This document shows, piece by piece, positions 26,862 through 61,655 of a stretch of 62,268 nt of DNA (positions within the stretch are counted from its first letter, which is position 1; each line of letters opens with the position of its first letter). Location of the stretch: the IMG/VR virus record IMGVR_UViG_3300012927_000093, positions 1-62,268 of that record. One strand, given 5' to 3'. The position numbers and the translations under genes are program-made. The stretch comes from a virus. The notes under the pieces are model-generated. The model saw nothing but the letters and a program-made list of their open reading frames with translations. It was not told the DNA's origin and searched no databases.

Positions 26862-28148
26862 TCAGCTGTGGTGCTGGAACGCGGCAACCGCGTTGGAGTC
26901 CTGCACGGTCGCGTCCAGGCGGGTGAAGCCCAGGAAGCCGACCTGCAGACTGTCCATGTAGCGCTCGCCGAACCGGACCATGTTCATGTCCAGCACCTGG
27001 CGAACCACGTACGCCCGACGGAAGTCGCCGAACAGGATCGACTTGGCGGACGCGCCCGGAACGGCCATGCCCTGGTCGATGAAGTAGGGCTGGCCGTTGA
27101 TCGTCGGCGCCATGCCCGGCACCGGCACCGGCACCCACAGGGGGTGGCCCTGCGAGTCCTTGATCTTCCGGATGACGGCCAAGGCGGCATCCGCGAACAT
27201 GAACCTGCAGTTCTGCCGGTAAGCCGGGTCCAGGCTGTGCTCGAGGTCGATCAGGTTGTCGTAGGTGATCGACGTCTGGTCGGCACCCGTGACGGCAACG
27301 GTGGCGTTGGTGGCAATACCCAGCGGCTCCGTGGTGCCCGCACCAGTGACCAGCACCGCCGCGACCTTGCGGCCGATGCGGGTGCCCAGGTGATCCGGCA
27401 GCCAGTTGTTCAGGTCGAACACCGAGTCCTGCAGCAGCTGCACAGACACCTTGGCGACGCCGGAGGCGTACAGCCACGCGCCCAGGGTCGCGGTGCCGAA
27501 CGTGAAGTCGGTCATCGTCGGCGCGGTGGCCTCGGGGAGGATCGCACCCAGGTTGCTGGTGTCATCGTTGGTCGGCCACTGCAGCGGGTTGCCGGTCGAG
27601 GTGTTGATGACGTCGGCGTAGGCCAGCAGCCCACCGAAAGCTTTCATCCTCTCGATGATGATCTGCCTATACCCCGGCGGAATCAGGTAACCACCAGCAG
27701 AGCTCGGCGACGTGTTCTGCCCCGCACGTGCTTCCTGGCCGGCGTTCACGTAGTTCGCGGCCAGGAGCTGGCGCTGCTCGGAACGCATGTCCTCCAGGCC
27801 GCCGCGGGCGTACGCCTCGAACGCCCGGGTGTACTCGACGTCGTGCGCGGCCTTGCGCTCCTCGGAGGACTGCTCCGGGGTCTCTGCGGCGCTGCCACCA
27901 CGGGTCTGCACGACCTGGCCGTAGTCCACGGCCTCCACGCTCTGCGCGCGAGCTGCGCGCTTGGCGTCGGCCTCAAGCTCGGTGACCTTCGCTTCGAGCT
28001 CGTCGGCCCGCGCGCTGGCGGTGTCGAAGTTGGTGCGCTGCTCAGCGGACCACTCGCCGGCCTTGTCGGTGTCGGCGATGATCTCGTTCATGCGGTGCGA
28101 GAGCCCCATGAGCTCCTCGCGGTACCGCTTGTTCTGCTCGTTACTCAT
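26862..28148 (-). CDS. Major capsid protein (HK97 fold)
   Basis: 428 residues from ATG 28148 (a GTG at 28172 would add 8). Residues about 1-100 are a charged coiled-coil scaffold segment (DTASARADELEAKVTELEAD); the HK97 core follows, with GGYLIPPGYRQIIIERMKAF, PLQWPTNDDTS, LLQDSVFDLNNWLPDHLGTR and GQPYFIDQGMAVPG, the hallmark strings of this family. Position after portal and protease confirms the assignment. The scaffold segment is expected to be cleaved by the protease encoded next door. Confidence 0.93.
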   Translation of the reverse strand: MSNEQNKRYREELMGLSHRMNEIIADTDKAGEWSAEQRTNFDTASARADELEAKVTELEADAKRAARAQSVEAVDYGQVVQTRGGSAAETPEQSSEERKAAHDVEYTRAFEAYARGGLEDMRSEQRQLLAANYVNAGQEARAGQNTSPSSAGGYLIPPGYRQIIIERMKAFGGLLAYADVINTSTGNPLQWPTNDDTSNLGAILPEATAPTMTDFTFGTATLGAWLYASGVAKVSVQLLQDSVFDLNNWLPDHLGTRIGRKVAAVLVTGAGTTEPLGIATNATVAVTGADQTSITYDNLIDLEHSLDPAYRQNCRFMFADAALAVIRKIKDSQGHPLWVPVPVPGMAPTINGQPYFIDQGMAVPGASAKSILFGDFRRAYVVRQVLDMNMVRFGERYMDSLQVGFLGFTRLDATVQDSNAVAAFQHHS

Positions 28149-28223
28149 GTTGGATCGCGTCCTTTCCGGCACGCCAACAACCCCCGTACGCAGCGCGCAG
28201 GAGGGTCGAAAGGGTTTGGTGGG

Positions 28224-29453: not shown

Positions 29454-30704
29454 TTATCCACCGTCTGACGGGCCGAGAGACGAGCCGCCGATGACCGGGT
29501 CGGTGCCCATCGGCGCGTTCAGCGGAGTCGGATTGGTGGGCTGCATGTATTCCTGGCCGGCGCCGTTCGGCAGCGGCGGCAGATCCTCATAGGCCCGGAT
29601 CTCGTCCACGTTGAACGCGCCCATTTCCCGCATCACCCGGTAGAACTCGGCACGGGCGATCGAGTCGCCGCGTAGCAGGCTGTCCAGGTCGTAACGGGCC
29701 TTCTGACCAGCGGGTAATAGTTCCTTGGAGATCCGCTGCTCGGCCGGGTTCAGCCAGTTCGGGCCGAGATCGAACTGGTTGAAGCCGCGGGCCTGCTGTT
29801 CAAGACCGCTACCCCACGACGTGGTCTTGTCCGTCTGGTACATCAGGTACGGCGGGATGCCGAAGAACCGCGCGGCCTCTGTGACCTGGAAGTCCCGGGA
29901 CTCGAGCAGCTGCGCATCGTCGGCCGGCATCGTCAAGCTCTGGAACTTTGCGCCCGAGTCGATCACAGCGATCTTGTGCGCGCCGTCGATGCCTGCGAAC
30001 TTCTCCGCCCAGCGGGCCTGCAATGTTTCGGCCTGGGATTGGTCCAGCTCGGCCTCGGTGGACAGCAGGCCGTTGAGCATGTTGCCGGACTTGAACAGTC
30101 GCGCGGCGGTAGCTTCCGCTGCTTGCGACATGCCGATCGCCTGGGCGGCCATCCGGACCGGGGAGATCCCGGCGATGCCGTTGTAGCCGATGCCTGGGAT
30201 GTGCATGACCTCGTTCGGGGTCAGCACGGTCATCGTGCCGTCCAGCTGGGTGATCTTGAAGATCTTCCCGGACGGGTTCTGCGGGATCGCCTTCACCGGC
30301 AGCACCACCACCCGGTCTGGCTGGATCGGGTTCAGGTGATCCAGCTTGCCGCCGCGCTTGTAGACCTTCTGCGAGAAGCAATTGCCCCACAGGCAGCGGT
30401 GCGCGGCCATCAGGCGCCAGTATTCGAGCGGCGTCATGTCCGGGTGCGGGTCGTCCAGGATGGTTCCAGTGACCGGCTTCTTGGTGGTCATGTCGATGGC
30501 GTTCAACGGCAGCGACCCGGCGAGCCCGGAGATGAGGCTGACGGCCCGGTAGACCGCTGACATGTTCATCGCGGTGTACTCGGTGACCGGAACGCCCGAA
30601 TCGGTCGGCTGACCGCCGAACAGGCCCAGAATCGACAGTGAGTTCAGCGGGACGAGCGGGTTTTCCAGGTTCGCCCGACGTTCGCGGAGCTTAAAGAGGC
30701 CCAT
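29454..30704 (-). CDS. Portal protein (HK97 family)
   Basis: 416 residues. Strings characteristic of HK97 portals are present: VTEYTAMNMSAVYRAVSLIS, MTPLEYWRLMAAHRCLWGN, FSQKVYKRGGKLDHLNPIQP, VMHIPGIGYNGIAGISPV and FFGIPPYLMYQTDKTTSWGS. The twelve-subunit ring forms the DNA entry vertex and binds terminase. It follows terL and a 56-residue membrane protein, with a 3-base overlap. Confidence 0.95.
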   Translation of the reverse strand: MGLFKLRERRANLENPLVPLNSLSILGLFGGQPTDSGVPVTEYTAMNMSAVYRAVSLISGLAGSLPLNAIDMTTKKPVTGTILDDPHPDMTPLEYWRLMAAHRCLWGNCFSQKVYKRGGKLDHLNPIQPDRVVVLPVKAIPQNPSGKIFKITQLDGTMTVLTPNEVMHIPGIGYNGIAGISPVRMAAQAIGMSQAAEATAARLFKSGNMLNGLLSTEAELDQSQAETLQARWAEKFAGIDGAHKIAVIDSGAKFQSLTMPADDAQLLESRDFQVTEAARFFGIPPYLMYQTDKTTSWGSGLEQQARGFNQFDLGPNWLNPAEQRISKELLPAGQKARYDLDSLLRGDSIARAEFYRVMREMGAFNVDEIRAYEDLPPLPNGAGQEYMQPTNPTPLNAPMGTDPVIGGSSLGPSDGG

Positions 30705-30888: not shown

Positions 30889-32481
30889 TCACCACAAGTT
30901 GGGCACTTTTCGCTTCGCCAGCGACCCGTGTTCGATGGCCCAACCGCGGGCTTCGTAGGCCAAAAGCGCGGCCATGAAGGCCGAAATTGACTGTGCGTGA
31001 GACTTCTTGACGATGCGTTGGTAGTGCTCAGGCTGCCCAGGGACCCGTTCCTCAGCCGTGGAACGCCGCTTTCCGTTGGCCAAAGCGGCCCCAGCGGCGT
31101 GCATAGTGAGGATTTCGGTGCCGTCATGGGTCAGTTCGTCGCCCCGATGGGCGGTTTGGAACCGCTCCACCAGCTGATCCATGCGCAACTCGGAGTTGGT
31201 CCACAGTTCGTAGACCTTTTTCGGGTACTGGCCGTCCCAGCCGTTGACCTCGGTCTGCCAGCCGCTCGGCGTGCAGAAAAACGCCTCAACCTCGTACGCC
31301 TTGAACACGTCCCGGACGACTTGGTCGACCTCGTCGCGCGGAACGGTCCATTCGTCCTCGCCCGGGGCCCGTTCCCACGACCGGAGGTGGAAAATGTGCC
31401 CGTCGGAGAGCCTGGAGGCGCACAAACTGGTCGCATCCCGGTTCTGGGAGCCGTGGAAGCCCAGCGCGATCTTGTCTCGGGGCCGCAACCGCTCCCCGGG
31501 GCGGGCTTGGGCGTCCCACAGGATCATGTCGACGGCGTCGCGCGAGCCGACTGACACTTCGTTGAGGTAGTAGCGGCGAACTTCGCCCTCGGAGTGCGCC
31601 GGGTTCTGCACTTCCTTGGCGATACGGCTCAACCGGACCCAGCCGCCGCGTTCGGTAGCGCTGTCGCCGTATACGTAGGCCAGTTCAGCCATCAGTTCGG
31701 CGTCGTCCATCAGGTTCACGCGCCGACGAGGCGGCCGATAGTCCACATAGACATACCGATCGGCCGCTTCGTAGGTCCGCTGCGCCACCGAGCGCTCACT
31801 CGGGTCGTATGCGTTGCTGATCTCGATCCAGCGACCATCCATGCCGCCCAAGTTCCGCTTGAGCGTGCGTGCAAGCTTGAGTCCGCCACTGGTTTCGGTC
31901 ATCAGCTGGGTCTCGGTCATGCTCACGAACGTCACCCGGGCGCCCTGGCGAGCTCGTGAGGACGCCGTAACCGGCTCAATCCGCCCGTTGCCCGGCAGGT
32001 TGATGCGGGTCTCCCCTGGATCCAGGCCCGGAGTGCTCTGCAGTGGGCCCTCGCGCAGCATCGTGAGCAGCGGCCGGAACGTGTTGCCGGTCTGCTCCTC
32101 AGCGTTACCCGCGCACTGGATCCACGGGGTGGGCCACGGACGCCCTACCGGCTCGCCAGCGGCGTCCCAACCGGCGAAGCGCACCGGTCCGAGCGCCTCG
32201 GCGCAGATGATCGCCGCCGCGAACGGGTCCTTTCCCCATTTCTGCGGCCTGACCAGCAACGCACCGGAGAACCGGAACGCGTCCGACCCCTCGCCGTCGC
32301 GTGCATTCGGTACCAGCCGGTAGGCGTGCAGCAGGTGCATGTACTGCTCGTCGGTCAGGATGTACGGCTCGCCCATCCGCTCACCGTCGGGGATGATCAC
32401 GTTATCTTCGATAAAGGCTGCGACAGCGTGCCCCAAAGACGGCCAGCGGTCGCCGTCCGGGTCTGGCCCACGCCACGGCAT
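30889..32481 (-). CDS. Terminase large subunit (first set)
   Basis: 530 residues. The N-terminal ATPase has an unusual Walker-A-type string LLVRPQKWGKDPFAAAII (about 76-92) seen in actinophage terminases; a later YVYVDYRPPRRR and LGFHGSQNRDATSLCA (nuclease-type Asp) segment belong to the C-terminal nuclease. It would cut and translocate DNA into the head with TerS (35331-35771). Between it and terS, three unrelated genes are inserted, which is unusual. Confidence 0.9.
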   Translation of the reverse strand: MPWRGPDPDGDRWPSLGHAVAAFIEDNVIIPDGERMGEPYILTDEQYMHLLHAYRLVPNARDGEGSDAFRFSGALLVRPQKWGKDPFAAAIICAEALGPVRFAGWDAAGEPVGRPWPTPWIQCAGNAEEQTGNTFRPLLTMLREGPLQSTPGLDPGETRINLPGNGRIEPVTASSRARQGARVTFVSMTETQLMTETSGGLKLARTLKRNLGGMDGRWIEISNAYDPSERSVAQRTYEAADRYVYVDYRPPRRRVNLMDDAELMAELAYVYGDSATERGGWVRLSRIAKEVQNPAHSEGEVRRYYLNEVSVGSRDAVDMILWDAQARPGERLRPRDKIALGFHGSQNRDATSLCASRLSDGHIFHLRSWERAPGEDEWTVPRDEVDQVVRDVFKAYEVEAFFCTPSGWQTEVNGWDGQYPKKVYELWTNSELRMDQLVERFQTAHRGDELTHDGTEILTMHAAGAALANGKRRSTAEERVPGQPEHYQRIVKKSHAQSISAFMAALLAYEARGWAIEHGSLAKRKVPNLW

Positions 32482-32774: not shown

Positions 32775-33128
32775 CTACGGGACGGGAAACGGATCGGGCA
32801 CACGAGAACCCAGGTTGATCTCACGGTGGACGGTGATCTGCTCCCCGTCGCGTTCGCCGTACTCAAGCCATATGATCTTGTTGACGATGTCGGTGCCAGC
32901 TTCGCCTTGGCGCTCCACCCAGTGCGTCAGCAGCACTTCGGCCGGGTCGATGCCGTGCGCGGAGAACCAGTCCTGCCAGAGCTGCACATGCCCGGCTGAC
33001 TCGTGGTTGATGTCCTCGCGGAAGTAGTCCCGCACGTGGTAGTGGCCGTCTTCGGTGCAACCGTGGTCGGGACCACGGGCGCTCTGCGGGCAGCGGCGTA
33101 GCTGGGAACCACGCTTACGGTGTTCCAT
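32775..33128 (-). CDS. Hypothetical protein near spike gene
   Basis: 117 residues, with Cys13 and Cys25 and a His-rich part (CTEDGHYHVRDYFREDINHES), and a later ERDGEQITVHREINLG. It overlaps the 3' end of the spike gene by 14 bases. Metal binding is possible from the Cys/His pattern. No known family. Confidence 0.6.
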   Translation of the reverse strand: MEHRKRGSQLRRCPQSARGPDHGCTEDGHYHVRDYFREDINHESAGHVQLWQDWFSAHGIDPAEVLLTHWVERQGEAGTDIVNKIIWLEYGERDGEQITVHREINLGSRVPDPFPVP

Positions 33129-35049
33129 AGAACGCCTTCTGGTTCGCTTCGGCGGTCATCCGATCCAAGGTCGGCAGCACCGACGCCCAGAACACCGCCT
33201 CACTGAAATTCATGGCCAGCGGGGCGAGGGACCCGCTGCGGACCACGCCGCCAATGGCGAAACGGTCCCTCGTGGGCTCACCAACACCCCGGACGTAGGC
33301 GACCGGTGCTAGGTCGACCGCCGCGTCCAGCCACTGGGCCATCACCGTGCCGGTGTCTGTCCCTGACATTTGGTGGATGGAGCCGTTGAACGCGTTGCCG
33401 GCGCCCTGGTAGGTGGCGTCACTGGACACGATCTGAATGGAGACCAGCGGGCGGGCCCTGGACAGTCCGCCACCGGCGACGTTGTCCGGTTGGTTTAGCC
33501 CGTACTGGAAGTTGGTTTGGGCGATGACCGCCTCGGCCCACCAGCGTTTCTGCGCGACCGGGGTAGCGGCAGTCAGCACCCCGCACACCGACGCTGAACC
33601 AGCGGCAAACAGGTTCGGCGTCGTCGAGAACACCACGTCGTCGACACCGTCGAACGTGGCCGCGGGCTTCCCACCGGAGGTGATCACCGCGCCGGATGAG
33701 ACGAGCTTCGGCTGTGTGGTGGTGGTGGCCTGAGTGAGGTGCCTCGTGTTACCGGACTGGTCGTACCAGGTGTCTACGAAACCGTCACCGGCCCCGCAGA
33801 AGGTCAACAAGCTCGCGGTGTCCAGGGCGCCGGAGACGAACCCGATGTCCTGGGTGGTGCTGTCGGAGCTGCGGCGCACCTTGACCGCGCTACCGGCATA
33901 ACCAGGCACGACGAGGCGCAGCGAGTAGGCGCGGGCGGGAACGACGGACTGCCCGAGCCCGTGGTCAACCGGCGTTGCGGACACCGTGGCGGACACCGTT
34001 CCCGGCCCGGCAGTGGACACCGGGATCACCCGGAAGTCATAGCTCGTGCCGGTAGTCAGCCCCGTCGCGTTTGCGGTGAGGCCGGCCGTTGTGGTGGCGA
34101 TGGAAACCCACGTGCTGCCAGCGGTGGTTTTCTGCTGAAGGTTGTAGGCCCCGGCCCCGGACAAGGCGCTCCAGGTCAGGGTGAGCGCGGTGGCGCCGAC
34201 GCTGCTGGTCGCCAACCCCGTGACCTGACCCGGTACGGCTGGCGGGGTGGGGTCGGACGCGCCGGTGAGAACACGCTGGTAGGCGTCGAACATGCTCCGA
34301 CCCATGACCCGCTGCGCGACGGCGTTGTAGTGGTTACCGTCGCCGAGGTTCTGGCCGTATACCCCCGCCGCGATCCGACACCGGGTGTTCCTTCCGGGAG
34401 TCCCCAAATGCACCGTGTTGACCGCCGCCCTGGTGCCGGTGGCCAGGTACTCCGGGACCATCTGCCCCATCACGAACGGCAGGCTGGGCAAACCCAGGTC
34501 GGTGCGGGCGCCGGTGATCAGCGCATCCAGGTCGGTTTGATGCGTTGCGCCGCTGATCCCGTTGTCGCCGTCGGTTTCGCCCTGAATCCAGAGGATTGCC
34601 GCGATCCGCGCGTTCGTTCCCGCCGCCGCGAGTGCTGCTTGTGCCTGCGCGACGGCTTGGGCGTAGAGACCACCCGCCACGCCTCGGCGCCACCCAGTTG
34701 CCGATGCGGTTGACAGCTGAGTGCCGCCGAGCGCGGACGGCACCAGCAGAACCCTGCGGTTCACTGGGGACGAATGCAGGTACCAGCGGGCGAACACCAG
34801 GCCAGGGCCGATTCCGGACGGCACGTCCAGCATGGCCAGCGGCTCAATAGCTTGGGAGATGACGCCGGCGTAAGTGCCCGACGCGCCCCACTGCTGAATG
34901 CGCGGATCGGACGGGTCGTAGCGGGTCGTGTCGTAGGGGGTGCCCCTGCCGCTCATGTTCGACTGACCCCACAACAGGATCAGGTCATAGCCGACATCGG
35001 CGGTGCTCAGGGCAGCACTGGCGGACGACGAGACATTTAGCTTCGACAC
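33115..35049 (-). CDS. SGNH esterase spike with arabinofuranosidase-like domain
   Basis: 644 residues. Residues about 20-250 are an SGNH/sialate-O-acetylesterase-type hydrolase: GQSNM (28-32, Ser30), QGETD (156-160) and GDGNHYN with Asp237 and His240 as the likely triad. Residues about 273-360 form a fibronectin type III domain. The C-terminal part (SLRLVVPGYAGSAVKVRRSS, then FVDTWYDQSGNTRHLTQAT and GKPAATFDGVDD) resembles the catalytic/lectin domain of alpha-L-arabinofuranosidase B. It could deacetylate and bind a host surface glycan. Placement between terS and terL is odd for a spike. Confidence 0.8.
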   Translation of the reverse strand: MSKLNVSSSASAALSTADVGYDLILLWGQSNMSGRGTPYDTTRYDPSDPRIQQWGASGTYAGVISQAIEPLAMLDVPSGIGPGLVFARWYLHSSPVNRRVLLVPSALGGTQLSTASATGWRRGVAGGLYAQAVAQAQAALAAAGTNARIAAILWIQGETDGDNGISGATHQTDLDALITGARTDLGLPSLPFVMGQMVPEYLATGTRAAVNTVHLGTPGRNTRCRIAAGVYGQNLGDGNHYNAVAQRVMGRSMFDAYQRVLTGASDPTPPAVPGQVTGLATSSVGATALTLTWSALSGAGAYNLQQKTTAGSTWVSIATTTAGLTANATGLTTGTSYDFRVIPVSTAGPGTVSATVSATPVDHGLGQSVVPARAYSLRLVVPGYAGSAVKVRRSSDSTTQDIGFVSGALDTASLLTFCGAGDGFVDTWYDQSGNTRHLTQATTTTQPKLVSSGAVITSGGKPAATFDGVDDVVFSTTPNLFAAGSASVCGVLTAATPVAQKRWWAEAVIAQTNFQYGLNQPDNVAGGGLSRARPLVSIQIVSSDATYQGAGNAFNGSIHQMSGTDTGTVMAQWLDAAVDLAPVAYVRGVGEPTRDRFAIGGVVRSGSLAPLAMNFSEAVFWASVLPTLDRMTAEANQKAFYGTP

Positions 35050-35330: not shown

Positions 35331-35771
35331 TTAGCCCGCCTCCGGGTCCACTGCCTTGAGCCGGCGGCGTGCCGGGGCTGCCTCGCGCTGCTCCTCGACC
35401 TCGTCCGCGACGATCTCCCACTCCAGGCGCTTGAGGGCCTGCGGGTTGAGTCCAAGTCGGTCCTGCATCGCGGTCATCGAGTTCAGCGTCTGCGCGGTGG
35501 CCACGTTGTTCTTGGCCTCGTTCTCCACGGCGAGCGAGACCCGCACGTACAGGGCGATCGTCATGTCGATGTGCATCCGCACCCACGCGTGGGCCTGCGC
35601 GGTGTGCCAGAGCGCGTCCCAGCGGTGCAGCTCGAAGTCCGTGGCTTCCATCAGGGGCCACTCCGGGATCGGGCCTGAGTAGCCCTCCATCGGCAGCTGA
35701 ACCTTGGAGCTACGTGGGAGGTTGCGCCGGATCGCGTTGGGGTTGCTCAGTGGTCCGCGGCTACCGCTCAT
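35331..35771 (-). CDS. Terminase small subunit (first set, P27-like)
   Basis: 146 residues. The N-terminal MSGSRGPLSNPNAIRRN tag and a central helical region (EATDFELHRWDALWHTAQAH, RVSLAVENEAKNNVATAQTL) with a C-terminal EVEEQREAAPARRRLK tail fit P27-family terminase small subunits of actinophages. It starts the late operon. It would recognise the phage DNA and recruit TerL. Confidence 0.75.
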   Translation of the reverse strand: MSGSRGPLSNPNAIRRNLPRSSKVQLPMEGYSGPIPEWPLMEATDFELHRWDALWHTAQAHAWVRMHIDMTIALYVRVSLAVENEAKNNVATAQTLNSMTAMQDRLGLNPQALKRLEWEIVADEVEEQREAAPARRRLKAVDPEAG

Positions 35772-37696: not shown

Positions 37697-37902
37697 CATC
37701 CGCTGGATGCGACATCAAGATAGATCGTCAGCTATGCGGTAGCCAACTCAGTCTCCGGCAGGTCGTGGACTTCGATGACCTAGGAGTCACCCACACCCGC
37801 ACGTTGTGCGCGTTGCACCAGGCGCGCTACTTCGATGCACGCTACGTACGAGAGCCGGCATTCGTGCAGACGCTGTCGTTCCGGCACGTACCCGTCGAAT
37901 GA
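37693..37902 (+). CDS. Small zinc-finger-like protein, paralogue B
   Basis: 69 residues. It overlaps paralogue A by four bases (ATGA) and the RuvB-like gene by four bases. It shares with A the order C-D-I-x-x-x-R-Q-x-C-G-S-x-L and C-A-L-H-x-A-R-x-F. A small metal-bound fold is likely; function unknown. Confidence 0.7.
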   Translation: MTSAGCDIKIDRQLCGSQLSLRQVVDFDDLGVTHTRTLCALHQARYFDARYVREPAFVQTLSFRHVPVE

Positions 37903-39134
37903 CCGTCTTCGTCGATGGCGGACTGGCCGGTGAGGACGTGCATCTCCTCGTCGGTCAGTCCGTCGTCACCGTGCCTGGCATTGGCCGCTACCGCATCAAC
38001 GACAACGGCACGTCCACGCTCATGACCGGCTCGAGAGGAAAACCGAAGGTGACCGATTTCAGCGAGTTTGCCGCCCGCATGGGCATCAAGGTGAAGGAGC
38101 CGAAGCCCGTTGTGGTGCGCGAAGCCGCATCGGCGGCTTCGAGGTCCAAGGCAGTGCGACCGACCGACATCATCACGATGATCGGTCAGGAGAAACTGCG
38201 CGTGCGGCTGACAGCCCATATGCGGGCCTCGAAGCTGCTCGGCAAGCCGGTGGGTCACATCCTGCTGCAAGGCCCTCCAGGTCTCGGCAAGACCAGCATT
38301 GCGATGCTCATTGCCGACATGGCGGGTGGCGATCTCGTCATCGCATCCGGTGATGCGCTCAAGACGCCCGAGACGCTGGTCAACGAGCTCGGAGAGCTCA
38401 AGGACGGCGACGTGTACTTCATCGAGGAGATGCACGGTCTGCCCGAGAAGCCCAAGCGCACGTTGTTGACCGCGATGGAGGACGGTCGCGTGGACATCGC
38501 GGTCGGCTCCGGTTCGCGCAGCGTCGTCGAGTCCAAGATGCTGAACGACTTCATCCTGGTCGGCGCCACCACCGAACCGGGCAAGCTCCCGCAGCCGCTA
38601 CTCGACCGATTCGCCATCCGTGGGTCGCTGGACTACTACGACGCTGACGAGATCGCCGAAATCATCACCCAAGCCGCTAAGCGCGACCGCATCAAGATCG
38701 AAGAGGAAGCGGCTACCGAACTAGCGCACCGCAGCCGGCGCACGCCCCGGATTGCGCTCAACCTGCTGGCAATGGCCCATGAGTACGCGGTGGCGTCCGC
38801 TGACTCGACCGATGTACCGGTCACCGTGCTGGACGTCAACCGGGCCCTGGAGATGGAGGACATCGACCACAACGGGCTGACCAAGGCAGACCGCTCGGTG
38901 CTGTGGGACCTGTGCAAGGTGCACAAGGGCGGTCCGGTGGGCCTGACCAACCTGGCCACCGGCGCGGACACCGACAACCGCACGCTTGAGTCCATCGAGT
39001 CGTACCTGATCCGGGCCAAGTACATCATCCGCACCGGTCAGGGCCGGGTGGCGACGAACTGGGGATTCGAGGCTGTCGGGCTCGAGCCGCCGGTGACCGC
39101 GCCGCACGCGGAGGACATGGAGATGGAGGACTAG
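37899..39134 (+). CDS. RuvB-like branch-migration ATPase
   Basis: 411 residues from ATG 37899. From about residue 87 it follows RuvB: IITMIGQEKL, Walker A GPPGLGKT (125-132), Walker B-like VYFIEEMHGL (172-181; RuvB usually has DEIH), GATTEPGKL (222-230), LLDRF (234-238), HRSRRTPRIA (277-286) and a winged helix GPVGLTNLA with RTGQGRVAT. The first 85 residues have no RuvB counterpart. RuvB drives Holliday junction branch migration on RuvA; no RuvA gene is visible. A RuvC-like resolvase is encoded at 44727-45278. Expressed from the leaderless promoter at 37422. Confidence 0.85.
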   Translation: MTVFVDGGLAGEDVHLLVGQSVVTVPGIGRYRINDNGTSTLMTGSRGKPKVTDFSEFAARMGIKVKEPKPVVVREAASAASRSKAVRPTDIITMIGQEKLRVRLTAHMRASKLLGKPVGHILLQGPPGLGKTSIAMLIADMAGGDLVIASGDALKTPETLVNELGELKDGDVYFIEEMHGLPEKPKRTLLTAMEDGRVDIAVGSGSRSVVESKMLNDFILVGATTEPGKLPQPLLDRFAIRGSLDYYDADEIAEIITQAAKRDRIKIEEEAATELAHRSRRTPRIALNLLAMAHEYAVASADSTDVPVTVLDVNRALEMEDIDHNGLTKADRSVLWDLCKVHKGGPVGLTNLATGADTDNRTLESIESYLIRAKYIIRTGQGRVATNWGFEAVGLEPPVTAPHAEDMEMED

Positions 39135-39481
39135 ACCCGGTCGTTCTTGTGCGAGTTGCAACCCCTGCACAGCACGGCGTAGTTGCTCGACTCGTGCATG
39201 AGGTCGGGGCGCACGGTGCGAGGAATGATGTGGTCAGCCGTGAGCTGCTGCGTTCCCGTCGCGTTCGGCACCACCGGATGCGGCGGGAAATCGTTCCACC
39301 CCGGACACACCCACCCGTAGCGAGCGACCCAGTCTGAGATCAGCTGGTGCGCGATGCGCTGGTGTTGCCGCCCGAGCCCCTTGGACGTGGCGCTGGCCCG
39401 GTAGCTGGCGGTTCCGCACTTGCCCCCGCACCGTGAGCCGCGGGTGGGTTGTCCGCAGGCAAGGCACGGTTTGAGCGCCAT
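39131..39481 (-). CDS. HNH endonuclease
   Basis: 116 residues. CLACG..GSRCGGKC gives a Cys-type zinc site; then CPGWNDFPPHPV, LTADHIIPRTVRPDL and YAVLCRGCNSHKNDR make the HNH core. This form (with AVLCRGCN) is typical of small actinophage HNH proteins that may help terminase in packaging. Convergent with the RuvB-like gene, overlapping by four bases. Confidence 0.8.
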   Translation of the reverse strand: MALKPCLACGQPTRGSRCGGKCGTASYRASATSKGLGRQHQRIAHQLISDWVARYGWVCPGWNDFPPHPVVPNATGTQQLTADHIIPRTVRPDLMHESSNYAVLCRGCNSHKNDRV

Positions 39482-39582: not shown

Positions 39583-39843
39583 ATGACGACGACGAGCTCG
39601 GTGGAGATGACGATCAGCACCTTCGGCCCCGACGGTGCCGTGTTCCTGGCTCCGACCACCAGCACTTGCCCCGACACGTGGCGCGAGGAGCTCGCCAAGA
39701 AGCGGCGCAACCGGAACCTGGCCGAGATCGCCGGCGGCTTCGAGTTCGACTCTTACTGCCCCGGCTACTGGGACCACCAGGAGGACGCCGAGTACATGCA
39801 GGCGATCCGCACTCGGGTCACGTTCACCTCGAAGGAGATCTGA
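39583..39843 (+). CDS. Hypothetical protein upstream of Ku
   Basis: 86 residues from the leaderless ATG (MTTTSSVEMTISTFGPDG). Beta then charged helix (WREELAKKRRNRNLAEIAGG), ends TRVTFTSKEI. The Ku start lies one base past its stop, so both are on one message. No family recognised; a Ku partner is a possibility. Confidence 0.65.
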   Translation: MTTTSSVEMTISTFGPDGAVFLAPTTSTCPDTWREELAKKRRNRNLAEIAGGFEFDSYCPGYWDHQEDAEYMQAIRTRVTFTSKEI

Positions 39844-39844
39844 C

Positions 39845-40636
39845 ATGTTCTCGAAAGCCACCTGGACCGGCACCATCTCGTTCGGCCTGGTCTCCGTGCC
39901 GGTCAAGCTGTACGGCGCGACCGAAGAGCACGGAATCGAAACGCATGAAGTCCACCCGGTCGACGGGGGTCGGGTGGGCCACAAGCGCGTGTGCAAGGAC
40001 TGCGACAAGGAGATCGCGTATGGCGATCTAGGCCGCAGCGTGGTCGATGTCGATGGCCACACGCACGTGTTCACCAAGTCCGAGCTCGACGCGCTGTCCG
40101 ACGCAAAAGACCACTCGATCACCCTGGACAGTTTCTGCGATCCGGACCAGATCGACCCGCTGTATCTGAGCAAGACGTATTACGTGCGGCCGGACTACAT
40201 GATCCGCAAGCGGGGCGATGCGCCCCGCGCGAACAAGCCGTTCGCGGTGTTCGCCGCTTCGTTGGCCAGCTCAGGCAAAGCGGCCATCGGTCGCGTCGTG
40301 ATGCGGTCGCGGGAATCCCTGGTGGCCATCACCATGCGCGAGGACGTGATGGTGCTGCGCGTGGTGCTGTGGGCCGATGAGATCCGTCAGCCGGTGTTCC
40401 AGGAGCCCGAGGTGCCAGTGGTGGACGTTCCCACTCAGCACGCCATGGAGGCGCTGCAGCTCATCGACGCGCTGACCATCAAGTTCGACATCAACTCGCA
40501 CGTGGACCGGCGCGAGCTCGCGCTGTCGGACCTGATCGCATCGCGGCGCGAGCCGGTCGAGAGCACGGACAGCGACGCCCAGGTGATCGAGCTGTTCAAC
40601 CGGCTGCCCAAGCCCGCCGTCACGCACGCCGTGTGA
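39845..40636 (+). CDS. ku: Phage Ku protein (end-joining)
   Basis: 263 residues. The start (TWTGTISFGLVSVPVKLYGA), GGRVGHKRVCKDCDKEIAYG, FCDPDQIDPLYLSKTYYVRP, IGRVVMRSRESLVAI and LRVVLWADEIR match bacterial Ku throughout the beta-barrel and dimer ring. It lacks the Lys-rich C-terminal extension seen in some bacterial Ku. Ku homodimers bind DNA ends and recruit LigD. Mycobacteriophages Omega and Corndog carry Ku that helps circularise their genomes; no ligase is encoded here, so host LigD would be needed. Confidence 0.92.
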   Translation: MFSKATWTGTISFGLVSVPVKLYGATEEHGIETHEVHPVDGGRVGHKRVCKDCDKEIAYGDLGRSVVDVDGHTHVFTKSELDALSDAKDHSITLDSFCDPDQIDPLYLSKTYYVRPDYMIRKRGDAPRANKPFAVFAASLASSGKAAIGRVVMRSRESLVAITMREDVMVLRVVLWADEIRQPVFQEPEVPVVDVPTQHAMEALQLIDALTIKFDINSHVDRRELALSDLIASRREPVESTDSDAQVIELFNRLPKPAVTHAV

Positions 40637-44167: not shown

Positions 44168-44730
44168 CACGTCACCCCGAACTGTCGCAACGTAGCCCAA
44201 GCCTGTTTGATTCTGTCGCAGGATTTGCACACCCGGCCCCCGTCACGGCGCACCCGGACGTTGTCCCCGGCCTTGACGTGGATGCGGCGCGAGCACCGGA
44301 CGATCGGGGCACCGGCGAGGTCGGCCGAGGGCAGCTCCGGGGCGGCCCGCATCTCGTCGATGATGTGTTTCGCGTTGGCGATCGCGTCGGCGCGGCGCTT
44401 CTCGTGGGCCCACATCGGTGCGCCCTGGCGGTGCGCGGGTAGGTGCGGGTAGCGCAGCGGGGCCGAAACGGGGGCTGTGCGGGCCGCTGAGGGCTTGGGA
44501 ACCAGTCGCAGGGGTTCCGGGGTGGGCGGCACGTAGCCGAGCGCTACGCGGCGGCTCAGGAGCATTGCGTCGGCTACCGCTTCGAGGCCGAGCACCGCCA
44601 GCATCTCGGCTAGGTCCGGGCCGCGGAACCGACGCATCACGGTAAGTACCGCGCTGTGCGACTCATCGGTGACCACGTGTGAGTTCAGGGTCTCCGTGCT
44701 GCCGCCGTTAAACGGGTCGATCGCGCTCAT
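44164..44730 (-). CDS. Hypothetical early protein
   Basis: 188 residues from ATG 44730 with a GGAGGGAG ribosome site. N-terminal helical part (DLAEMLAVLGLEAVADAMLL), middle with HEKRRADAIANAKHIIDEMR, and C-terminal CSRRIHVKAGDNVRVRRDGG, RVCKSCDRIKQAW, a small Cys zinc-ribbon. It overlaps the RuvC-like gene by four bases. A DNA or RNA contact role is possible. Confidence 0.7.
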   Translation of the reverse strand: MSAIDPFNGGSTETLNSHVVTDESHSAVLTVMRRFRGPDLAEMLAVLGLEAVADAMLLSRRVALGYVPPTPEPLRLVPKPSAARTAPVSAPLRYPHLPAHRQGAPMWAHEKRRADAIANAKHIIDEMRAAPELPSADLAGAPIVRCSRRIHVKAGDNVRVRRDGGRVCKSCDRIKQAWATLRQFGVTW

Positions 44731-45278
44731 GCGGCTCCCTCCAGTTCGGTGGTGCGCTCTGGCCACTCGGCCTTGACGGTCTTGTGCCGCTCGAGCGTCG
44801 GCACGTCCATGCCCAGCCACACCGCGCCCAGGTGGGCGAGGCCCGCGGCGTCCGCCATGTCCGCGTTGCCGTCGAAGTCGGGCCACAGCCGCTGCACCGC
44901 CAGGGCGAGCTGAACCTTGTCCGCCTTGCCCGACCCGAAGATGGCCAGCTTCAGCGAGGTCGGCGGCACGATCGCCACCGGCACTTCCCGGCGGATCAGC
45001 CCGCCCGCAACGAACCAGAACAGCGCGGCCCGGTCGATCAGGCTGCCGGCCTTCGGCCCGGTGAACAGCCCCTCGATCACGGCCAGGTCACACACACCGG
45101 CGTGGTGCAGGATGCCGTTGCCCAGCTCGGTCAGCCTCGCGTGCCGCTCGACCAGCGACGCGGCTCGCTTGCCCTTGGACGTGATCGTGTCGGTGACCAT
45201 CTTGGTGCCGCGGCTGGTTTCGAGGCAGATGGCGATGCCGGTGCAGGTGAGGGAAAGGTCCAACCCGGCGCATTTCAC
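44727..45278 (-). CDS. RuvC-like Holliday junction resolvase
   Basis: 183 residues. MKCAGLDLSLTCTGIAICLE holds the first catalytic Asp (D7), VIEGLFTGP the Glu, and the C-terminal part ADMADAAGLAHLGAVW the two Asp of the RuvC metal site, all in RNase H fold order. RuvC cuts four-way junctions, useful before packaging of branched phage DNA. It is next to a PD-(D/E)XK exonuclease (4-base overlap). The matching RuvB-like motor is at 37899. Confidence 0.85.
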   Translation of the reverse strand: MKCAGLDLSLTCTGIAICLETSRGTKMVTDTITSKGKRAASLVERHARLTELGNGILHHAGVCDLAVIEGLFTGPKAGSLIDRAALFWFVAGGLIRREVPVAIVPPTSLKLAIFGSGKADKVQLALAVQRLWPDFDGNADMADAAGLAHLGAVWLGMDVPTLERHKTVKAEWPERTTELEGAA

Positions 45279-56852: not shown

Positions 56853-58100
56853 ATGGCGTGGACTGAAGAGCTAGCGCCCAACTCGAGCGGCACAGTCCGG
56901 TTCCGGGGCGCCTATCGCAACTCCGACCAAGAGGTGCGACGCAAGACCTTTGATCACAAGAACGCCGCCCTGAGATGGGCGTACGCCGAAGAACAGAAAG
57001 TCGCAGAAGGCTCTCGCCGAGACCCCGCGAGAGGTCGCCTCACCTGGAGCGCCTGGTGCGCACGGTGGTGGCCGACCCGGCGAATGGAGTCAGGCACCGC
57101 GAACTCGCAGATGAGCATGCGTGATCTCTATGTGCTGCCCCGCTGGGGCGACGTCCCGCTGAACAAGATCGAGCACGACGACTTGCAGGTCTGGGTCAAC
57201 GAGCTGTCCAAGAAGTTATCCGCCTCATCGACCCGGCTGTGTTACTACCAGCTGTCCGCGTCGATGAAAGCCGCCGTGCCGCGGTTGCTGCCCTATACGC
57301 CGTGCATCGGGATAAAGCTGCCCACGTTGCCTTCGGCGCCCGAGCGCTACCTTACTTTTGATGAAGTCGATGCGCTGTTCTATCACCTTGATGGCGTGTA
57401 CCGGCTGTTAGTCGAAACGCTGATCGAGACAGGCATGCGGATCGGCGAGGCGGTTGCGCTGCATCGGCACCGGATCAACTTCGAACAGAAGACGATTGAT
57501 GTCGTGGAACGCTGGGACGGCTACGCCGGCGTAGTTAAGGCATACCCGAAAGGCAAACGTCGGCGCACCGTGCCGCTCACACCGAAGCTAGCGGGCCTGC
57601 TGCACGCCTGGTACCAGATGCGCCCCTCTGACGCCCGACGCTGCACCGTCGTCCACGACCGCGGATCGGTATGCCGTTCAGCGTTGGTGCACCCGTCACC
57701 GGGCAACGGGAAAGTCATCGACCCCAAGGACTTCTCGCTGCGGCCATGGCGCAACGCCCTGGAGCGATCCGAGATCGGGCACGCCCGGATCCACGATCTC
57801 AGGCACACCTACGCGTCACGCATTGTAACTGCCGGCGTCAGCCTGTCGGTACTGCAGGCGCTGCTCGGCCACAGCTCGATCAAGACCACGGAACGGTACG
57901 CCCATCTATTGACCGACAGCCATGATGAAGTACGGGCCGCGCTGGCCCTGCGACCCTCAAAGGGAGCAGATGAGGGAGCAAACCAGTTGACACGCCTCGA
58001 TACAGCTCGGCACAAAAAGATGCAGCGGAACCTATCCCGACCAGGCAAAACGGCGAGGAACGGCACTACCGGGCACGCCTCGCCACAGGCTGAAATCTAA
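56853..58100 (+). CDS. int: Tyrosine integrase
   Basis: 415 residues. N-terminal arm-type domain (RFRGAYRNSDQEVRRKTFDH), SAM-like core-binding domain (about 70-160), catalytic domain with Arg (LIETGMRIGEAVAL), HDLRHTYASR, LLGHSSIKTTERYAHLL giving R, H-x-x-R, H and Tyr. Phage integrases of this class recombine attP with a host att site. A copy of the 22-bp element lies inside its 3' end. Hairpin at 58125-58155 may terminate it. Confidence 0.93.
   Translation: MAWTEELAPNSSGTVRFRGAYRNSDQEVRRKTFDHKNAALRWAYAEEQKVAEGSRRDPARGRLTWSAWCARWWPTRRMESGTANSQMSMRDLYVLPRWGDVPLNKIEHDDLQVWVNELSKKLSASSTRLCYYQLSASMKAAVPRLLPYTPCIGIKLPTLPSAPERYLTFDEVDALFYHLDGVYRLLVETLIETGMRIGEAVALHRHRINFEQKTIDVVERWDGYAGVVKAYPKGKRRRTVPLTPKLAGLLHAWYQMRPSDARRCTVVHDRGSVCRSALVHPSPGNGKVIDPKDFSLRPWRNALERSEIGHARIHDLRHTYASRIVTAGVSLSVLQALLGHSSIKTTERYAHLLTDSHDEVRAALALRPSKGADEGANQLTRLDTARHKKMQRNLSRPGKTARNGTTGHASPQAEI
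57987..58008 (-). repeat. 22-bp element, copy 2 (inverted)
   Basis: TTGACACGCCTCGATACAGC plus TC is the reverse complement of 55786-55807 with two mismatches. Inside the last 40 codons of the integrase gene; the coding demand does not explain the match. Confidence 0.65.
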
Positions 58101-58124
58101 TTTCCTATTAAGGGTGGTTCGAGC

Positions 58125-58155
58125 GCATCCGGGCCTGCTCCCTGAGTCCGGATGC
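58125..58155 (+). terminator. Hairpin after integrase
   Basis: GCATCCGG (58125-58132) and CCGGATGC (58148-58155) are an exact 8-bp stem with a 15-base loop, 24 bases after the integrase stop. No T-run. Confidence 0.5.
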
Positions 58156-58200
58156 CGCGTGACCTGCTGGGTTGCGATCTCGGACCGCCTCGCGGGAGGC

Positions 58201-58221
58201 GCTCCCCCGGACCCCGGGAGC
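58201..58221 (-). terminator. Short hairpin after HTH gene
   Basis: GCTCCC (58201-58206) and GGGAGC (58216-58221) pair over six bases about 19 bases past the stop at 58240. Weak terminator candidate. Confidence 0.35.
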
Positions 58222-58239
58222 AACGAGGGAGCAGGGGTC

Positions 58240-58419
58240 TCAGCCACGGTTGCGCTCTTCGACCTGACGACGCAGGTCGTCTAGGTCCCAGCGGTAGTGC
58301 CCGCCGGCCGTGACCATTGCCGGCTTGAACTTGTACGTGGTGACCCAGCGCCGCAGCGTCGCCCGACCGACACCGAGGGCGTCAGCCGCCTGCCCAGTCG
58401 TCAAGTAACGCTCCGTCAC
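58240..58419 (-). CDS. Excisionase/MerR-type helix-turn-helix protein
   Basis: 59 residues, GTG 58419: RYLTTGQAADALGVGRATLR, RWVTTYKFKPAMVTAGGHYR, WDLDDLRRQVEER. This is a full MerR/excisionase-type HTH. It is convergent to the integrase and divergent from the next operon. It may be an excisionase for a second element or a regulator of the promoter at 58472. Confidence 0.75.
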   Translation of the reverse strand: MTERYLTTGQAADALGVGRATLRRWVTTYKFKPAMVTAGGHYRWDLDDLRRQVEERNRG

Positions 58420-58471: not shown

Positions 58472-58501
58472 TTGGCGTGGAACCGGTCTCGTGCGTATAG
58501 T
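58472..58501 (+). promoter_or_regulatory. Promoter with adjacent palindrome
   Basis: TTGGCG (58472-58477), 18 bases, TATAGT (58496-58501). A 10-bp palindrome CTCACGTGAG follows at 58503-58512, then direct repeats ATTGAGC, suitable as an operator for the HTH protein beside it. Confidence 0.6.
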
Positions 58502-58556
58502 CTCACGTGAGCGGATTGAGCGCATTGAGCCGATCGCTATCCCGGGGAGCAAACCA

Positions 58557-58832
58557 ATGACCACCGCCTATGACGAGGCACCGACCATGAACGGCAACCA
58601 GCCCACCGAGCCCACCGACCGCAAGCGCGCCCTTCGCCGCATGCGCGATCTGCTCGAGCACACCGAGCTCGGCCCGCAGCTGGCCGACGAGATCCGCGAG
58701 ACGCACCTCGACCTGATCGACCAGGAGAACTCGGCCACCGGCATCAACAAGCGCCACCTGAGCAATCGGGCGCACCTGGTCGGTCTGCTGCTCGCCGCGC
58801 TGGACGAGTTCCACGGCATCGAGGCCGAGTGA
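58557..58832 (+). CDS. Small hypothetical protein, first of right operon
   Basis: 91 residues from ATG 58557 with GGGGAGC upstream. Helical: RKRALRRMRDLLEHTELGPQ, LADEIRETHLDLIDQENSAT, HLSNRAHLVGLLLAALDEF. Overlaps next gene. No function recognised. Confidence 0.7.
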   Translation: MTTAYDEAPTMNGNQPTEPTDRKRALRRMRDLLEHTELGPQLADEIRETHLDLIDQENSATGINKRHLSNRAHLVGLLLAALDEFHGIEAE

Positions 58833-59065
58833 TGGCCTGGGGAAGCAAGCGCGAGAGCCACGCATCCTTCACCGCCCCGTCGGCCGAGTTCCAGGCCCAC
58901 AAGCAGCGCAAGGCCGAGGCTGAGCGCCAGGCCAAGGCTGACGCCCGGGCCGCCGACGCCAAGAAGGCCGCCGCCGCACAGGCCAAGGCCGACCGCGACA
59001 ACGAGCGCGCCATGGAACGGGCCGCCCAGCAGATCGCCGAGCGCGTCCTTCGGCACATGCAATGA
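58832..59065 (+). CDS. Small coiled-coil protein
   Basis: 77 residues from ATG 58832 (GTG 58829 gives one more and a GTGA overlap). Nearly all Ala/Lys/Glu/Arg helix (HKQRKAEAERQAKADARAAD). Possible structural or DNA accessory role; unknown. Confidence 0.65.
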   Translation: MAWGSKRESHASFTAPSAEFQAHKQRKAEAERQAKADARAADAKKAAAAQAKADRDNERAMERAAQQIAERVLRHMQ

Positions 59066-59322
59066 ACCTGGTCAACCCGGAGCAGTTCCGCCACGGGCTC
59101 ATGTGGGTGGCCTTCTGGGGCATGGTCGCTTCGGCCGCAACCCTGGTGCTCGGTGTTGGGCTGGACGCTGGTTGGCACGTCTGGGTACCGGCAATCATCG
59201 CGTTCCCGCTTTGCTACCTGATCCGCGAGGCGTGTCACGACATGTGGATGGACGTCAAGGCCCCACGGATCCCTTCCACGTACACCACGCCGCGTGACTC
59301 CGACTCGGACTGGGAGAAGTAA
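59062..59322 (+). CDS. Small membrane protein
   Basis: 86 residues with two membrane helices (MWVAFWGMVASAATLVLGVG and VWVPAIIAFPLCYLIREA) and a cytosolic tail. Overlaps the previous gene by four bases (ATGA). Unknown role. Confidence 0.65.
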   Translation: MNLVNPEQFRHGLMWVAFWGMVASAATLVLGVGLDAGWHVWVPAIIAFPLCYLIREACHDMWMDVKAPRIPSTYTTPRDSDSDWEK

Positions 59323-59507: not shown

Positions 59508-59939
59508 ATGGGTGACCACTCCGGCCCTTACGCGTCAACGGACCCGAACAAATCCCCCGAGGTCGTGGATGCCGAGGCTGCGTTGGCATATGCGCGGCTG
59601 CTGCGTCGTGAGGCGCCGAACGATATTGCCCGCGATCTTGGGATTTCGAGGGCGACTTTCTATCGCAGAATCGAAATGTTGATGTTGCGACATGACCGCC
59701 CTTCTCGATCTTTGATGCAGGTGATCGCGCACGACGAGCTTGATCAACTGACGCGGATGACGATGCAGCGGCTGCAGGAAGAGTGCTCGAACCAGGACTT
59801 TGTGAAGCTGGTGGGCGAGCTGCGCCAGCAGAACACGGCGCGACTCAAGCTGTACGAAGACGCGCCGGCGAACACCGATGAGGGTGAGTCCACCGAAGAG
59901 GATTGGGACGACTGGGAGTCCGATGACCGCGCCAGTTAA
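59508..59939 (+). CDS. Terminase small subunit-like (second set)
   Basis: 143 residues, GGAG before the ATG. VDAEAALAYARLLRREAPND, IARDLGISRATFYRRIEMLM is a helix-turn-helix; HDELDQLTRMTMQRLQEEC follows, and an acidic C-terminus (EEDWDDWESDD). An HTH plus oligomerising helix and position before a large terminase gene fit a small terminase subunit. Overlaps that gene by 17 bases. Confidence 0.65.
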   Translation: MGDHSGPYASTDPNKSPEVVDAEAALAYARLLRREAPNDIARDLGISRATFYRRIEMLMLRHDRPSRSLMQVIAHDELDQLTRMTMQRLQEECSNQDFVKLVGELRQQNTARLKLYEDAPANTDEGESTEEDWDDWESDDRAS

Positions 59940-61437
59940 GCGCCGGCTCGAAGGTCCGCCCGGCTTCCGTCCCGAGCTCTACACAGCGAAGCTGCGCCAC
60001 GGCGCGTTCCGCACGCACACCCAGGAGTGCATCAACAAGCGCCGGGATTGGTGCCGCACCTCCCCGATCCTGTTCGCGCTCTACTACCTGGCACCGCACG
60101 TGATGCTGCCCGGGATGCTGCACGCGTTGAGCGATCTGCACATAGCGCTGGCCATGTCGGCGAAGCGGTGGATGCGTACCGACGTCGGCCCAAAGGAGAT
60201 CCGCGACGCCTGGGTAGCGCCCCGGGACGCTGCCAAGACGACGTGGCTGTTCCTGATCTTGCCGCTGTGGAGCATGGCGTTCGGGCACCGCAAGTTCATC
60301 GTCGTCTACTCCGACACCGAGGATCAGGCGAAGCTGCACTTGGCCACGCTCAAGCTGCAGTTCGCGCAGAACGAGCGGCTGATGCGGGACTTTCCTGAGC
60401 TGTGCACGCCGATGAAGACTGGCGGCCGGGCGCTTAAGGACAACGACACGACGTACCTGGCAGCCAACGGCGCGATCATCATGGTGAAGGGGATGAACTC
60501 AGCGACGCTGGGCGTGAAGTGGGACAACCTGCGCCCGGACGCGCTGCTGTTCGATGAAGTCGAGCCCAAGAAGGGCCGCTACAACGTCGAGATGAAGCGC
60601 AAGCGGCTCGAGGATCTGATCGACGTGATCTTGCCGTGCAACTTCTCGGCGGTGGTCCAGATCGCGGGGACGACCGTGATGGCCGGCTCGATCATTCACA
60701 ATCTCGTCGAGGGCGACGCGTGGGTGGCCGAGGAGAACATCACGGTCCATCACTTCCGGGGCATCATCGAAGACCCTGAGACCGGAGACGAACGGTCGCT
60801 CTGGGAGCCGAAGTGGAGCCTGGAGTTCCAGCGCGAGGAGCGGCTGCGCAACCCGCGCGGCTACGCCAAGAACTTCGACAACGCCCCGGTCGACGAGAAC
60901 GGCACGTTCTGGGACGACGACGACATCACCTACGACACGCGCCTGCTCGAGCACATCACCGAGCGAATCCTGGTCGTGGACCCGGCATCGAAGTCCAAGA
61001 AGACGAACGACGAGACCGGCATCGCCATGGTGTCCTATGCCGGCAACGTGCGCCGTGTGATCGTCGAGCGGGTGATGGGTGTGCGGCTGAAGCCAGACAA
61101 GCTACGCGAGCTGGTGCACTCGATCGTCCGCAACAACGGCATCCGCCTCATCGTGGTGGACGTGACCAACGGCGGCGACCACGTGGAGAACACACTGTCG
61201 CCGCTGCCGCCTGGCGTGCGGGTGTTCCCGGTGTCGCTGCGCCGATCGAAGATCGATCGGATCACGGACTTGCATGACTGCTACCTGCGCAAGCCGCCGA
61301 TGGTGGTGCACGCCCGGCCGATTTCGACGCTTGAGGCGCAGATGAAGGCTTACCCCAAGACGCTCCACGATGACCAGATCGACGCTGTGGCGCTCGGCAA
61401 GGAGTACTTCCACGGCGAGCTGAAGGCCGCTAGCTGA
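59923..61437 (+). CDS. Terminase large subunit (second set)
   Basis: 504 residues from ATG 59923. WVAPRDAAKTTWLFLILPLW (Walker A type APRDAAKTT, 99-107), KFIVVYSDTEDQAKLHLATL, ALLFDEVEP (207-215, Walker B), and nuclease-type VVDPASKSKKTNDETGIAM and VVDVTNGGDHVENTL. It is not similar in strings to the first TerL (30889-32481). No portal follows in the remaining 800 bases. Packaging of its own element, or an accessory motor, are options. Confidence 0.85.
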   Translation: MTAPVKRRLEGPPGFRPELYTAKLRHGAFRTHTQECINKRRDWCRTSPILFALYYLAPHVMLPGMLHALSDLHIALAMSAKRWMRTDVGPKEIRDAWVAPRDAAKTTWLFLILPLWSMAFGHRKFIVVYSDTEDQAKLHLATLKLQFAQNERLMRDFPELCTPMKTGGRALKDNDTTYLAANGAIIMVKGMNSATLGVKWDNLRPDALLFDEVEPKKGRYNVEMKRKRLEDLIDVILPCNFSAVVQIAGTTVMAGSIIHNLVEGDAWVAEENITVHHFRGIIEDPETGDERSLWEPKWSLEFQREERLRNPRGYAKNFDNAPVDENGTFWDDDDITYDTRLLEHITERILVVDPASKSKKTNDETGIAMVSYAGNVRRVIVERVMGVRLKPDKLRELVHSIVRNNGIRLIVVDVTNGGDHVENTLSPLPPGVRVFPVSLRRSKIDRITDLHDCYLRKPPMVVHARPISTLEAQMKAYPKTLHDDQIDAVALGKEYFHGELKAAS

Positions 61438-61484: not shown

Positions 61485-61655
61485 ATGCAAGACCCCCTGA
61501 TGACCCTCCAGGAAGTCGCTGATTACCTCGGCATCAAGCCGGAGTCGGCTCGCAAGCTGCTGTACCGGCGCAAGCTGAAGCACGGTTACCTGCGATCTGA
61601 CGTCGTGGCCATCGAGCGCGCCAAGGGCCGACGTACCGATCTCGAAAAGGACTGA
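61485..61655 (+). CDS. Small helix-turn-helix protein
   Basis: 56 residues, ATG 61485: LMTLQEVADYLGIKPESARK, LLYRRKLKHGYLRSDVVAIE, an excisionase-type HTH. No ribosome site; expressed from the leaderless promoter. Probable regulator. Confidence 0.7.
   Translation: MQDPLMTLQEVADYLGIKPESARKLLYRRKLKHGYLRSDVVAIERAKGRRTDLEKD

Follow-up and report, generated by a model that had tools for sequence, protein, structure and literature searches.

Why would a temperate phage carry two terminases, and which of its enzymes cuts the phage DNA? The question is raised by an entire IMG/VR virus record of 62268 bases (hereafter, the window), in which no terminal repeats were found and which represents most of one temperate soil phage whose host is, judging from its relatives, probably an actinobacterium. 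The first-pass annotation recognized, besides the small and large terminase genes of the late module (TerS1 and TerL1), a second, unrelated terS-like/terL pair at 59508-61437, separated from the first by an integrase and a second excisionase-like gene, and offered three explanations: a neighboring prophage, a satellite with its own terminase, or a phage with two packaging motors. Both reading frames of the second pair (TerS2 and TerL2) are indeed open on the + strand, and the intervening genes encode a tyrosine integrase and a small MerR/HTH_17 protein, as annotated. This arm of the window comprises the following genes:

56853..58100, + strand: tyrosine integrase (Pfam Phage_integrase, 2e-27)
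58240..58419, - strand: MerR/excisionase-like HTH protein, between the integrase and the cassette (Pfam HTH_17, 3e-10; phrog_66, 2e-10)
58491..58832, + strand: short conserved ORF that belongs to the TerS2-TerL2 cassette (identity in the related contig G001, 45%)
59062..59322, + strand: hydrophobic, membrane-like small protein encoded before TerS2 (in all three TerL2 carriers, 26-30% identity; no family match found)
59508..59939, + strand: TerS2, small HTH protein (TerS by position; weak profile support)
59923..61437, + strand: TerL2, accessory terminase large subunit (phrog_38; ATPase and nuclease motifs intact)
61485..61655, + strand: HTH_17/excisionase-like gene 3' of TerL2 (46% identical in G001)

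TerL2 matches the profile of the terminase large subunit phrog_38 over residues 64-511 (E=3e-51), and 77 phage records match it in a tblastn search, the best ones at 33-38% identity. The ORF is open from 59878, and translation probably starts at the ATG at 59923, overlapping the TerS2 stop codon; a comparable overlap is found in G001. Both Walker motifs are present (A, APRDAAKTT; B, LLFDE), and the acidic residues D354, D414, D485 and D488 (A1 numbering) are retained, these positions being invariant or nearly so in 32 relatives (414 is E or D). The best PDB match of the AlphaFold model (pLDDT 87) is PhiV-1 TerL (Z 21.6); the ATPase fold aligns with T4 gp17 (Z 18.7), and several viral terminase nuclease domains are matched with Z of about 15-16. 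By these features TerL2 is classified as a terminase large subunit with an ATPase domain and the acidic triad of an RNase H nuclease, and it is a putative nuclease. The Walker A motif of TerL2 reads AKT, whereas the actinobacterial relatives have GK[ST]; the possibility that this Gly-to-Ala replacement signifies a dead or altered ATPase was rejected, given that AK[ST] is also found in three ordinary TerLs, of Bacillus, Helicobacter and Klebsiella phages.

TerS2 is a probable small terminase. The terS-like label given to 59508-59939 is weaker than the terL assignment and rests on the HTH, the position and the size of the protein; the profile support is weak, the match to known TerS reaching an hhalign probability of 68% over the HTH part only. 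The equivalent protein encoded by a further related contig, G005, is clearly related to true TerS (E=4e-11). TerS2 is 77% identical in G001, and no relatives were detected in annotated phages or, beyond G001, in IMG/VR.

Only three contigs carry TerL2: the window, G001 and G005. G001 (68738 bp), found by the TerL2 search, encodes a TerL2 and a TerL1 that are, respectively, 91% and 74% identical to those of the window; it has an exact end overlap of 127 bp, as expected of a closed circular assembly, and, once circularly permuted, runs colinear with the window, both terminases included. G005 (42200 bp) comes from a different metagenome, and its TerL1 (75% identity) and TerL2 (38%) occupy the same relative place. 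In a tree of TerL2, the three orphan proteins form one clade (100/98), on long branches for which possible mutual attraction is flagged, so that the three may or may not share a single origin. The window reaches only 0.8 kb beyond TerL2, and the portal and capsid genes that the first-pass annotation proposed to look for there were sought in the two colinear contigs. The region 3' of TerL2 contains small genes followed by convergent tail genes in G001 and, again, tail genes in G005; accordingly, the window simply stops in the TerL2 arm, with about 4-6 kb of the genome estimated to be missing by comparison with G001. No portal or capsid gene, nor any further gene typical of satellites, lies 3' of TerL2 in any of the three contigs, and the satellite option is therefore unsupported as such.

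The same two contigs bear on the possibility that the window is an assembly chimera or a junction of two adjacent prophages near 58100-58240. The integrase of the window differs from that of G001, in which a serine-recombinase-like gene (63248-64843) replaces the tyrosine integrase while TerS2-TerL2 stays, and this difference could be taken as a sign of such a junction. However, G001 is circular by end overlap and has both terminases in the same gene order, and G005 provides an independent case, so the same join would be needed three times. The chimera is thus extremely improbable and already refuted unless G001 and G005 are likewise chimeric; the neighboring prophage is contradicted by the same contigs. 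What they support is the third of the initial options, a phage with two packaging motors, and the TerS2-TerL2 cassette is almost certainly one phage's own selected gene pair.

Selection was gauged by Nei-Gojobori estimates of dN and dS between the window and G001, the two full genomes, between which TerL2 is the most conserved protein (91%). For TerL2, dS is 0.56 (0.44-0.68) and dN/dS is 0.12, the latter value being the same in the ATPase and nuclease domains; the capsid (dS 0.54, dN/dS 0.24) and portal (dS 0.59, dN/dS 0.21) genes were compared in the same way. TerL2 is under strong purifying selection and, its dS being equal to those of the capsid and portal genes, diverged together with the head genes and is a long-time resident. 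These findings bear directly on the suggestion that TerS2-TerL2 is a passive remnant, left when a satellite or another prophage recombined into the phage beside the integrase. The location of the pair immediately past the integrase fits this suggestion. So do the isolate relatives of TerL2, of which the TerL of MulchRoom, a Streptomyces satellite, scores best and that of MiniFlayer is likewise one of the top matches. Nevertheless, a remnant is improbable and already disfavored by the selection test: the low dN/dS at the above dS, the intact motifs and the lack of frameshifts argue against it, and so do the shared place in three contigs and the absence of other satellite genes.

The genes of the late module and its vicinity, on the strand opposite TerL2 and the integrase, include:

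26862..28172, - strand: major capsid protein (phrog_10, E=8e-72)
29454..30704, - strand: portal protein, TerL1-linked (phrog_12, E=2e-98)
30889..32481, - strand: TerL1, portal-linked large terminase (phrog_19179/phrog_9; nuclease triad lost)
35331..35771, - strand: TerS1, small terminase (Pfam Terminase_7, E=1e-4, below the gathering score)
39131..39481, - strand: HNH endonuclease (Pfam HNH, 4e-6; PHROGs HNH, 5e-8)

The two large subunits show no detectable similarity to each other (BLASTP E=0.41; profile-profile probability 0.3%), in agreement with the claim that they are unrelated. TerL1, which is adjoined by the portal, protease and capsid genes, presents a fact that the first-pass annotation did not mention and that is the more unusual one. 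Its AlphaFold model (pLDDT 85) aligns with HK97 TerL with Z 28.1 and with the G20c nuclease domain with Z 18.6 (2.8 A over 176 residues), yet the nuclease aspartates are replaced, by H343, T404 and S500 in the window, through changes of LGFDGS to LGFHGS, DP to TP or SP, and ID to IS. The published catalytic residues of HK97 TerL are D302, D388 and D471 (PMC9410871), and the equivalent positions are occupied by H, T or S, and S, respectively, in all 17 distinct contigs of the clade. In contrast, D/D/D is kept in 12 sister contigs (about 50% identity), in more distant relatives and in the isolates Kromp, VWB, Yakult and Ponzi. In the profile alignment of TerL1 with HK97 TerL (6z6d), the first two columns fall on D302 and D388, which correspond to D312 and D398 of the 6z6d chain before removal of 10 residues read as a tag; the third column, equivalent to D471, was placed by the family alignment. 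TerL1 thus is of the HK97 type by its fold and the adjacent portal and capsid genes, not by the D/D/D triad, and its RNase H-fold domain, although present, is predicted from sequence to be vestigial and devoid of nuclease activity. In the TerL1 of both the window and the sister group, Asp follows the Walker A Lys and the Walker B Asp is replaced by Thr; this reciprocal change is thus found also in sister proteins whose nuclease triad is intact.

TerL1 is mosaic, as indicated by the uneven dS between the window and G001 (1.26 in the ATPase half, 0.48 in the nuclease half) and by the 91 C-terminal residues, which are identical to those of G001. In another contig, G006, the genes flanking TerL1 are closer to the window than is the TerL1 of that contig. 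By TerL1, only distant prophage relatives were found, no close ones, and these provide neither attL/attR nor the name of a host.

The presence of two TerLs in one genome, the loss of the TerL1 triad, the intact motifs of TerL2 and the purifying selection on TerL2 are the observations behind a division-of-labor model that we tentatively prefer, short of calling it probable. Under this model, the genome would be packaged by the resident set of HNH, TerS1, TerL1 and portal, with TerL1 pumping by means of its retained ATPase motor, its nuclease domain being vestigial; TerS2 would mark the DNA and TerL2 would cut it, so that TerS2-TerL2, a nuclease-competent accessory to a nuclease-dead motor, would make up in trans for what the resident motor cannot do, namely, cutting and perhaps alternative packaging. 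TerL2 may act on the phage's own DNA, working with TerL1 and the portal. Several observations, besides those on G003 and HNH given below, count against the model: TerL2 lies on the strand of the integrase, opposite the late genes, and may therefore be expressed in lysogeny; in G005, the contrast between TerL2 and TerL1 (38% versus 75% identity) suggests a turnover more like that of accessory than of core genes, and the portal-linked relatives of TerL2 work with another portal family.

A stricter version of the model, in which TerL2 is the obligatory nuclease for TerL1, is weakened by G003, a probably near-complete sibling in which the TerL1 triad is lost and TerL2 is absent; because of this genome, TerL2 is not required clade-wide. 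At the place of TerL2, in the same arm, G003 (L152 5181-8082) has genes for an ATPase of the FtsK/SpoIIIE-like type (phrog_12531, E=4e-26) and for a membrane/HTH protein, a pair that looks like an actinomycete conjugation module. Another reading is that TerL2 pumps DNA for the element, be it integrated or circular, in a task outside the capsid, for example, spreading element DNA from cell to cell, a role that the FtsK/SpoIIIE-like protein may have in G003, and the small membrane-like protein encoded before TerS2 in all three carriers would fit. This is very improbable: the shared place might merely denote a variable locus, and we know of no terminase that acts in conjugation-like transfer.

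A rival source of the packaging cut may be the HNH endonuclease. Homologs are encoded in G001, G003, G022 and G011-G013; of the clade members, the four with a contig extending to this region all have the gene, and it is also present in the sister group, where it adjoins TerS1. It is therefore possible, if somewhat less likely than the division of labor, that HNH-TerS1-TerL1 is a complete system in which HNH makes every cut, and that TerS2-TerL2 is an att-proximal accessory cassette that interferes with, captures or mobilizes other phages, satellites or plasmids. The conservation of HNH in the clade and its location beside TerS in the sister group, the promotion of cos cleavage by gp74, the HNH protein of HK97 (PMC9410871), the absence of TerL2 from G003, the accessory place of the cassette adjoining the integrase, the rapid turnover of TerL2 seen between G005 and the others, and the satellite terminases among the kin of TerL2 are all compatible with this possibility. 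On the other side, the HK97 HNH protein assists cutting by TerL and does not replace it, and no target or partner of TerS2-TerL2 is known. What the division-of-labor model has in common with a role for HNH is a split between packaging motor and cutter, with TerL1 pumping without cutting, the cut being made by TerL2 or HNH, and TerL2 perhaps adding a second packaging specificity, for own or foreign DNA; such a split is a possibility that we hold with some reserve.

How unusual is an orphan TerL2? In nearly all relatives with enough sequence, a portal gene is located directly 3' of TerL. Scans of IMG/VR with three further queries added to the known contigs only L173, a relative that is portal-linked; the genome scans revealed just more distant relatives, mostly portal-linked, with none closer in 396 Actinomycetota genomes, and plasmids gave distant, mostly partial matches. 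A phage with two unrelated complete terminases was not found in the literature, which is weak evidence of absence.

Among the known systems, the satellites MulchRoom and MiniFlayer (PMC10690885) encode TerLs that are 38% and 33% identical to TerL2, respectively, and their terminase genes open the module; however, these satellites, with genomes of 15-17 kb, carry their own portal, scaffold and capsid genes after TerL, whereas TerL2 is followed by none of these (in G001 and G005, small genes and then tail genes come next) and its carrier is a full phage. The Streptomyces phages Yara, Rooney and KimJongPhill and the Microbacterium phages Isperia, Wyvern and OscarSo encode members of the TerL2 family (33-36% identity); in the records of these phages that were examined, the portal gene follows the terminase and Walker A is GKS, in contrast to the AKT and the lack of a portal in the case of TerL2. 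PICIs and capsid-forming PICIs have extra terminase genes beside the integrase, as in the window, but they are satellites, whereas the cassette of the window resides inside a full phage genome, in which other satellite genes were not recognized. With the HK97-type terminase, which consists of the HNH protein gp74, TerS and TerL (PMC9410871), the late module of the window shares the TerL fold and the HNH gene but not equivalents of the three catalytic aspartates. The packaging ATPase gp16 of phi29 has a vestigial RNase H nuclease domain (PMC7672431) and resembles TerL1 in that respect only, given that phi29 packages unit-length, protein-capped DNA, whereas the phage of the window has TerS, an HK97-type TerL, HNH and a second TerL.

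A fully functional nuclease in the packaging ATPase has been stated to exist in all phages that are not phi29-like (PMC7672431); the TerL1 clade, judged by its catalytic residues, runs counter to this statement. The combination of a TerL1 with a lost triad and a TerL2 with an intact one in the same genome is a natural system for testing whether pumping and cutting are separable, and bears on the actual role of the HNH partner and on the coexistence of two packaging specificities in one phage.

Several other genes of the window deserve mention. An SGNH/SASA-type esterase with an fn3 domain (33115-35049, - strand; Pfam SASA, 7e-34) is encoded between TerS1 and TerL1 and was detected elsewhere only in G006 (91%). 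A RuvC-like protein (44727-45278, - strand; Pfam, 1e-7) is found in the window only, and a RuvB-like AAA+ protein with RuvB_N, lid and C domains (37806-39134, + strand) is kept in G001, G003 and G022. Finally, a Ku homolog (39635-40636, + strand; Pfam Ku, 1e-33; phrog_4873, 6e-50) is 73% identical in G001 and 50% identical in G003; Ku is used by some mycobacteriophages for end joining at circularization.
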